64,000 nt of DNA from Moorella thermoacetica (lineage in GTDB: Bacteria; Bacillota; DSM-521; Neomoorellales; Neomoorellaceae). A model generated the notes under the pieces. The model ran no database searches and was not told the DNA's origin. It saw only the letters and a program-made list of their open reading frames with translations. Position numbers and translations under genes: made by a program. Below are positions 12,160 to 32,031 of the stretch, in pieces (position 1 is the stretch's first letter; each line of letters opens with the position of its first letter). The stretch spans positions 2,010,001 through 2,074,000 of the forward strand of contig NZ_CP012369.1 in assembly GCF_001267405.1 (NCBI RefSeq), written 5' to 3'.

Positions 12160-12216
12160 TACTTCCTCCGAAAATAGACTTCTGGTAAAAATGGAAGTCA
12201 ATACCATCCAGCCTGG

Positions 12217-12456
12217 GGGCTGGAGGGTACAGCTCCGGCCTCCGGTGGTTCTCGGCTAGCAAACTTAGCGCTCAGCCTTGCTCGGCGTCGGGGGTGGCTC
12301 GGCTTTATCTCTTTGATCATTCATAACGGGGTGTGGTACTTCTCATTCCTCAAGCCACTTTGCGATCCCCATCCCGTTCACCGCCGCCTCGCTTCGGCTT
12401 CGCGTAAGTATCTGACGCCTCGAACCAAGTCGCCCTCCGCCTGTACCCTCCAGCCC
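12217..12456 (-). repeat. 240-bp structured repeat (copy A) with perfect 16-bp inverted ends, between hisZ and hisG
   Basis: GGGCTGGAGGGTACAG at 12217-12232 is the exact reverse complement of CTGTACCCTCCAGCCC at 12441-12456. Between them lie segments also present in a second copy in the purC-purB spacer: GTTCTCGGCTAGCAAACTT (here from 12249) and GGCTTCGCG..AAGTATC. This copy has roughly 95 bp more in its middle than copy B. No reading frame of note is present. It fills most of the 369-bp gap between hisZ and hisG and would be transcribed as part of the operon. Confidence 0.65.
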
Positions 12457-12520
12457 TCTGCCTCAGCCTACATTTTATGGTTCGCTGGCGGGGACGTCAG
12501 CCACCATGAAGGGCTCCTCC
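12434..12520 (-). repeat. Outer part of the operon repeat next to the hisZ 3' end
   Basis: 12434-12483 closely matches 28733-28783 at the end of purC (shared CCTCCGCCTGTA, GCCTCAGCCTACA and GGTTC blocks). 12501-12520 (CCACCATGAAGGGCTCCTCC) matches the boundary motif seen at 22136-22157, 23943-23962 and 28417-28446, each adjacent to a gene's 3' end. Confidence 0.5.
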
Positions 12521-12528
12521 AAAAATAC

Positions 12529-21964: not shown

Positions 21965-22153
21965 ATGTTTTAAACCTGCCTCCCTTTCAATTGCTGAAAC
22001 ATCCCTAACTCTACCATGCCACTAAAGGTTCCCCTCAAGCGCTGGTTGCGCCCAATTCCAAGGCCTTCGCTCCGCAGGCCTTGGGCCGGATAAAATCGAC
22101 GCACCACCATGGCGTAACATCAAATTTTCCTGTTCGATGGTAGAGCGGCTCCT
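21965..22153 (-). repeat. purN-purH spacer with operon repeat fragment
   Basis: No gene. The end nearest purN (22136-22157) carries the boundary motif GAAGGAGCCGCTC (minus-strand reading), matching those after hisZ and purF. A CCAAGGCCT...AGGCCTTGG hairpin lies at about 22058-22084. The last 20 bp hold the purH ribosome site. Confidence 0.4.
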
Positions 22154-28702: not shown

Positions 28703-28732
28703 AGATGACGCTCCTTTGAAAATAGGTTCTAC

Positions 28733-28783
28733 CCTCCGCCTGTATCTGCCAGCCCCTTGCCTCAGCCTACACTTTCAAGGTTC
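28733..28783 (-). repeat. Operon repeat fragment running into the purC 3' end
   Basis: Near match to 12434-12483 beside copy A (CCTCCGCCTGTA, GCC, CTTGCCTCAGCCTACA and GGTTC blocks). The purC stop codon (28762-28764) and its last six or so codons lie in the repeat. Confidence 0.55.
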
Positions 28784-29496: not shown

Positions 29497-29555
29497 GTCA
29501 TCCCTCTCCTTTGAAATAATCTATACCAAATAAGGAAATTATTGGTCGGCTTCCT

Positions 29556-29710
29556 GGAGGCGGGAGGGTAAGTCTCCGCCCTCCGGTTGGTTCTCGGCTA
29601 GCAAACTTTGGTGCTGGAGCCTTGCTTGGCGGCGGGGGTGAGCTTTCGGCTTCGCGGAAGTATCAGATGTTTTAAACCGAGTCGACCTTCGACTGTAACC
29701 CCCAGCCCCT
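29556..29710 (-). repeat. Structured repeat (copy B) between purB and purC
   Basis: About 155 bp aligned end to end with copy A at 12217-12456: both have an outer inverted pair (here imperfect, GGGAGGGTAAGTC with GACTGTAACCCCC), then GGTTCTCGGCTAGCAAACTT (from 29590), a GCCTTGCT.GGCG.CGGGGGTG block and GGCTTCGCG.AAGTATC. The middle of copy A is missing here. No coding capacity. It has the same orientation relative to transcription as copy A. Confidence 0.65.
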
Positions 29711-29740
29711 TGCATCGGTCCGGACGTTGTCCGCCCGCCG

Positions 29741-31560: not shown

Positions 31561-32031
31561 ATTTCTTCTCCTTCCCTATATTTTAGCATCTATTTGATCA
31601 GCCCCCTCTATCCTTTTTGCTACCACCCTGTATTTAAATATAATTTAACTCTCACCGCCGGTTCCTTTCCGCTTTCTCTCCGCTTCCAATCCGATTTCTG
31701 GACATAAAGATCATAAAGCACAGTTTAAATCCCTCTCACCAGCCGGCAAACTAAAGAACCCAGGCCGGGGTAGGTCACGCAACACTGAAACCTACCCGCC
31801 TGGGTTTTTATCCCTCCGGTGTAGCACAAAAGTGCCTGTACCACTCGGACCTAGCCGCGAAATAACCTTCGCGCGGAACCCTGAGGTACACTTTCAGGCT
31901 GTAGCCAGGGCAATTTACGGTTGCCCGGTAGAAACTTGGGAGCCCTATTCCCCCAATTATACAGGCCATTGCCATATTTATTTTTCGCCCCCATAATAGC
32001 AAAAGGGGCAACAACTGTCAATATAAAAGCC
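31561..32031. other. Purine operon leader and gene-poor region
   Basis: Apart from a strong hairpin at 31757-31809 no feature is well supported. The purine operon promoter must be here, but I found neither a purine or PRPP riboswitch core nor a clear PurR box. Two short overlapping minus-strand frames at about 31808-32033 have no ribosome site or recognisable homologue and I do not call them. Confidence 0.4.
31757..31809. terminator. Long bidirectional terminator-like hairpin upstream of purE
   Basis: AACCCAGGC and GCCTGGGTT arms plus an inner GGGTAGGT/ACCTACCC pair make a stem of about 17 bp (interrupted once), followed by TTTTTA on the plus strand and TTCTTT on the minus strand. On the minus strand it could end transcription coming from the cyanase side, or act as an attenuator of the purine leader. 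Confidence 0.6.

Follow-up and report, generated by a model that had tools for sequence, protein, structure and literature searches.

An IS200/IS605 insertion sequence has a target tetranucleotide next to its left end, and an equivalent tetranucleotide forms the last letters of its right end (PMC6006769). Short repeats such as RUP, BOX, SPRITE, Correia, and Nezha are thought to be non-autonomous mobile parasites, and the defining features of MITEs are terminal inverted repeats and a duplication of the target (PMC3049150). We examined a repeat in a 64,000-nucleotide stretch of the Moorella thermoacetica genome (the window, to which all coordinates without a locus label refer) and compared it with copies in related genomes. 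Our results indicate that the repeat very probably belongs to a superfamily of non-autonomous mobile elements, confined to one bacterial genus among those searched, for which the Shine-Dalgarno sequence (SD) is the insertion target.

The preliminary description had placed a 240-bp block, closed by an exact 16-bp inverted repeat, in the hisZ-hisG spacer. Reading the sequence confirmed the inverted repeat (12217-12232 and 12441-12456), and the block itself stands, but it is not the whole unit. Copies aligned with their flanks in the same orientation revealed conserved ends 40 to 60 bp beyond 12217-12456, and the true unit is ∼355 bp long (12163-12517, minus strand), including the GGAG of the 5' junction and the SD at the 3' end; these bounds come from a 34-copy alignment and from orthologous empty sites. 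The minus strand is the gene direction for this element, and hisG, hisZ, purC, purB, purS, purH, and purN (identified by NCBIfam) all lie on it. On this strand, a remnant of the native spacer and SD, GTATTTTTGGAGGAG (12514-12528), directly follows the hisZ stop codon at the 5' junction; relatives without the his element read stop-..ATTTTCGGAGGAAC..-ATG at its position. The remnant is followed by the 5' terminal hairpin region (CCCTTCATGGTGGCTGACGTCCCC..; 12486-12513), whose stem is kept with other letters elsewhere, by the internal palindromic core with its 16-bp inverted ends (12217-12456), which is the 240-bp block, and by the 3' end of the element, CTATTTTCGGAGGAA (12163-12177), which is the SD now preceding hisG (ATG, 12159-12157). 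In gene direction, a full copy begins immediately after GGAG and consists of CCCCTCATGGGGGCTGACGCCCCCGCC..AATGAAAATG.., the inverted-repeat core, and ..CCATTTTTGG.AGAA..CTATTTTCGGAGGAG, followed by a few bases and the start codon.

At 12470-12520 (minus strand), the leftover native SD precedes an ATG within the 5' hairpin and gives a short leader frame, MVADVPASEP at his and MGADAPASEQ and MGANSTSEREK in genome G005; these frames are not conserved. A conserved leader peptide from the 5' hairpin was considered and rejected as a coding sequence, as alignments showed that the frames differ among subfamilies. At 12160-12207 (minus strand), the reading frame of hisG continues upstream, still open, into the element, with an ATG at 12207, so that an automated annotation might place the hisG start within the repeat.

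Further copies were abundant in this genome and its relatives (all genome-wide counts given here rest on sequence searches and retrieved stretches). The 240-bp block had 41 matches in the complete genome, G000, and is therefore no chance feature; with flanks added there were 44, and 44 matches were also found in its closest relative, G010. A first look at G005 gave 165 candidates for this kind of element (type A), most of the scored ones full length, and well over 75 copies of the superfamily are present there. The 16-bp 5' end, with at most 1 mismatch, occurred 75 times in G005 (reversed control, 0), 16 times in G000, and 12 times in G010, and the 3' end had 162 matches in G005 versus 20 in the control. 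Searches across the order found type A in the one genus only, and collections of plasmids, phages, and viral contigs gave no match to the element. The genes that copies precede are unrelated (by sequence, rplL, efp, glyA, and others). Of the two options raised in the preliminary description, the non-autonomous mobile repeat is supported by the many dispersed copies, their species-specific presence, and orthologous empty sites.

The empty sites were found by using the joined flanks of ten G005 elements as queries against sister genomes. For eight of the ten insertions, sister species had orthologous empty sites, which are uninterrupted stop-SD-ATG spacers whose native SD, with its GGAG, marks the junction, and in all eight cases the element lies directly after the GGAG of that SD. 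For instance, the empty rplJ-rplL spacer of G003 reads ..TTATTTTCAAAGGAG/TGACTC..ATG (the slash marks the junction), and the filled spacer of G005 reads ..CTATTTTCAAAGGAG, the element (CCCCTCATGGGG...CTATTTTCAAAGGAG), and then GAATTTCC..ATG. The hisZ-hisG spacer holds the element only in G000 and G010 among ten species; it is missing in eight, in four of which the spacer is bare (e.g., ..TTTCGGAGGAAC..ATG and ATACGATTTTCGGAGGAACATTTAAATG). When full-length A copies were gathered solely by similarity, GGAG stood at the 5' junction in 27 of 30 (exceptions, L167, L168, and L174).

At the opposite end, the element terminus, ..TATTTTCGGAGGAG, supplies a new SD before the start codon. A start codon opening an ORF lay 4 to 15 nt past the 3' end in 52 of 76 elements. 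Among the 451 AGGAG sites of these loci, taken as a control, 87 had such a start codon; because genuine SDs and those of the elements are counted in the control, the contrast is a lower bound. About a third of the copies have no obvious start codon 4 to 15 nt downstream; in some the start is at 3 nt or a second element follows. The elements are mostly between genes of operons and in the direction of translation, since 52 of the 76 precede start codons and 49 have a reading frame on the same strand that ends no more than 150 bp upstream of them. Tandem elements occur in G005 (L161, L163, L169, L203, L204, and L205), with the second element directly at the SD of the first, which suggests that the element-borne SD itself serves as a target.

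The empty and filled sites show that insertion takes place immediately 3' of the GGAG in a native SD and in gene direction, and that the rest of the native spacer stays intact. Because the element has ..ATTTTCGGAGGAG as its own end, the downstream start codon keeps a strong SD at normal spacing. Judging from the sequence, translation should be able to start at the replacement SD, which would render the insertion nearly harmless, so that copies could accumulate in operons, even before ribosomal-protein genes. Since each element carries its own SD, an operon could take up many copies with translation kept.

The pur genes of the window carry copies in various stages of decay. A shorter relative had been described in the purB-purC spacer on the same strand; we found it to be a decayed, internally deleted A-type copy (29503-29716, minus strand) with the purC SD on its 3' side. 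It has the same orientation relative to transcription as the his copy, as had been noted, because the SD target is directional. Also on the minus strand are a relic of part of the left arm (28732-28783), after which come ..CCTATTTTCAAAGGAG and the start codon of purS, and a rearranged relic at the purH SD in the purN-purH spacer (approximately 21985-22148), where G010 has a full A-type element. With further traces in the window and dozens of copies elsewhere, the his and pur operons are thus in no way special.

The other option of the preliminary description was an undescribed RNA through which histidine synthesis would be tied to purine synthesis. Control of biosynthetic operons by a structured RNA acting in cis, be it riboswitch-like or a processing element, would agree with the strong folding of the element transcript (-159.8 kcal/mol; z, -7.3 versus shuffles), with an orientation that is nearly always sense and ahead of a gene, and with the few double-sided changes in stems. 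However, the his spacer of eight species is without the element, the target genes are unrelated, and ahead of other genes this position is taken by two further element types whose interiors differ. Most paired columns show no covariation: among 34 copies, 5 of 53 pairs had a double change (covariation term, -0.92). Compensatory variants are clear in the 5' hairpin stem (GGGGGC/GCCCCC, GGTGGC/GCCACC, and GGCGGC/GCCGCC); these fit recognition of the hairpin as DNA or RNA and are by themselves no argument for regulation. Rfam covariance models at the gathering score matched the window only at a purine riboswitch apart from the elements and gave nothing credible at the element loci, in agreement with the earlier statement that no known riboswitch is matched. 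That riboswitch (RF00167, 74.9 bits; 31882-31984, minus strand) lies ahead of the pur operon, which therefore already has a known purine sensor. We consider a regulatory RNA of this kind highly implausible. With the his copy missing in eight of ten species, unrelated genes downstream, and little covariation, the link between histidine and purine synthesis was not upheld, and there is no fixed association with the his and pur operons across species, the hisZ-hisG copy being limited to G000 and G010.

The letters around the junctions bear on how the elements move. Movement as a classical MITE by means of a DDE transposase, with a target duplication of ∼5 to 7 bp (AGGAG or slightly more) and a parent insertion sequence lost or unrecognized, would fit the presence of GGAG at both junctions, as well as the agreement between the two sides in the letters before GGAG, which is above chance. 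Across all 58 copies, a sample chosen for GGAG at both junctions and thus uninformative on how often GGAG is absent, this agreement exceeded every one of 5,000 shuffles; it was weaker in the 30 non-tandem copies (P about 0.01 to 0.03). Some copies repeat 6 to 8 native letters (L148, L152, and L176), and among copies with variant 3' ends, 7 of 15, several of them in tandem arrays, repeat the native three letters upstream of the 5' GGAG. Yet of the 22 clean copies that have the consensus 3' end, CGGAGGAG, 12 carry other letters in the three positions preceding the 5' GGAG than on the 3' side, which matches the element consensus exactly. The 3' SD of these copies is therefore element-borne, with no duplication beyond (A)GGAG; no more than (A)GGAG recurs in nearly all copies, with longer identity in a minority. 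The inverted repeats, furthermore, lie 40 to 60 bp inside the true ends, at which there are none, and no parent insertion sequence with the same ends was present among the G005 end matches inspected. The elements show no clear target duplication of fixed length, and we regard this origin as unlikely.

The junction class with the element-borne 3' SD corresponds to the behavior of IS200/IS605 elements. The class with native letters needs a copying of those letters, by duplication, gene conversion, or target priming. A single scheme would cover both classes if a reverse transcriptase copied a transcript ending in ..UUUUCGGAGGAG into SD sites and the extent of pairing between the target and the RNA end fixed the 3' junction. 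The sense orientation of the elements is consistent with such a retro-element, and a related group II intron reverse transcriptase is present in G000 and G005. On the other hand, the elements contain no group II intron domain, and G010, which has many copies, carries a different intron type; we therefore hold a retro-element to be quite improbable. The group II intron of G005 is ∼95% identical to that of G000 (L308:1916-3880 and L309:1830-5521), where its two matching parts are split by a ∼1.7-kb insert. Derivation of the elements from group II introns was rejected, the introns lying elsewhere in the genomes and having no sequence in common with the elements.

The SD-targeting superfamily comprises at least three element types (∼359, ∼137, and ∼415 bp) with unrelated interiors but common ends and target. 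Type B (∼137 bp; L188:601-737 and L203:1880-2016 in G005) has the same SD target and ends as type A, and it contains an interior hairpin, AAACTGGC-GCA-GCCAGTTT, and a 3' arm rich in CCTCC that might base-pair with the element's own SD. It is abundant in G005, G004, and G007, and at the threshold applied G000 and G010 yielded no copy. Within G005, some B copies at separate sites are identical, which points to recent movement. Type C (∼415 bp; L189:601-1014 and L204:3426-3840 in G005) combines the common ends with another interior, a different 200-bp palindrome (GGGTGAGGCAGGTTCCC..GGGAACCTGCCTCACCCC). Type C-like sequence was also seen beside L157 and in the purH spacer of the window.

These interiors raise the question of whether the 240-bp core was once an inverted-repeat element of its own that hopped into an older SD-targeting element, an origin compatible with SD-directed insertion. 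The core without the outer ends occurs in one other genus (G014) and apparently in G007, an A-type element of G005 (L204:601-957) has its core flipped relative to the outer ends, and types B and C have other interiors. Still, no clear target duplication surrounds the core, and full-length copies within the genus pair it with the same outer ends. We give such a nested origin a little less than even weight.

As to the enzyme, integration of the SD-targeting elements might be guided by the tetranucleotide at the hairpin end, as in the single-strand transposition of IS200/IS605, a part of the mechanism that we propose with less assurance than the rest. A Y1 transposase (Y1_Tnp, PF01797) was not found in G000 or G005, and G010 had fragments only; the Y1 insertion sequences of G006 and G004 have unrelated ends, and we rejected this enzyme as the present-day mobilizer. 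In G005, inspection of the matches to either end of the element gave short elements only, with no autonomous carrier or ORF-bearing copy among them. Group II intron reverse transcriptases and IS110 recombinases are present, and nothing ties either to the elements; DEDD recombinases of the IS110 type were present in 9 of 11 genomes, which makes their presence uninformative. We suggest tentatively, and with some doubt, that a new integration system, DNA or RNA guided, uses the SD motif as a genome-wide safe harbor for several unrelated cassettes with common ends, each of which rebuilds the ribosome-binding site that it hits.

In a literature search largely confined to papers free of subscription, we came across no account of repeats directed to SDs, whether in general, in this genus, or for the present family. 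Mobile elements persist given harmless targets; here the target motif precedes most genes and the element brings a replacement. If confirmed, SD-directed insertion would be a bacterial counterpart of safe-harbor targeting, would account for scores of insertions before genes, including rplL, in one genome, and may offer a route to place cassettes at ribosome-binding sites.

Compared with known systems, group II introns are found in the same genomes and are likewise directional and target specific in their insertion, but the element-bearing loci gave no match to intron domain V or D1-D4 at E values up to 1. IS200/IS605-derived elements and REPs, which depend on a Y1 HUH enzyme (PMC6006769), are similar in geometry: they too have a left-end hairpin beside a tetranucleotide, insertion 3' of a fixed tetranucleotide with the right end closing with the same one (here seen in the empty sites and the majority of junctions), and a high copy number between genes. 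They differ in that the tetranucleotide here is the GGAG of a functional SD, whereas that of REPs is GT[AG]G (PMC6006769), and in that the elements are 137 to 415 bp long with unrelated interiors. Further, the Y1 transposase was not found in G000 or G005 and the Y1 insertion sequence of G006 has other ends, and a minority of 3' junctions with native letters is unexplained by a pure IS200/IS605 scheme. With MITEs and the RUP, BOX, SPRITE, Correia, and Nezha repeats (PMC3049150), the elements have in common that they are short, non-coding, strongly folding, and dispersed within a narrow host group. Unlike MITEs (PMC3049150), they have internal inverted repeats and a junction fixed at the SD, and the SD is restored by the element.
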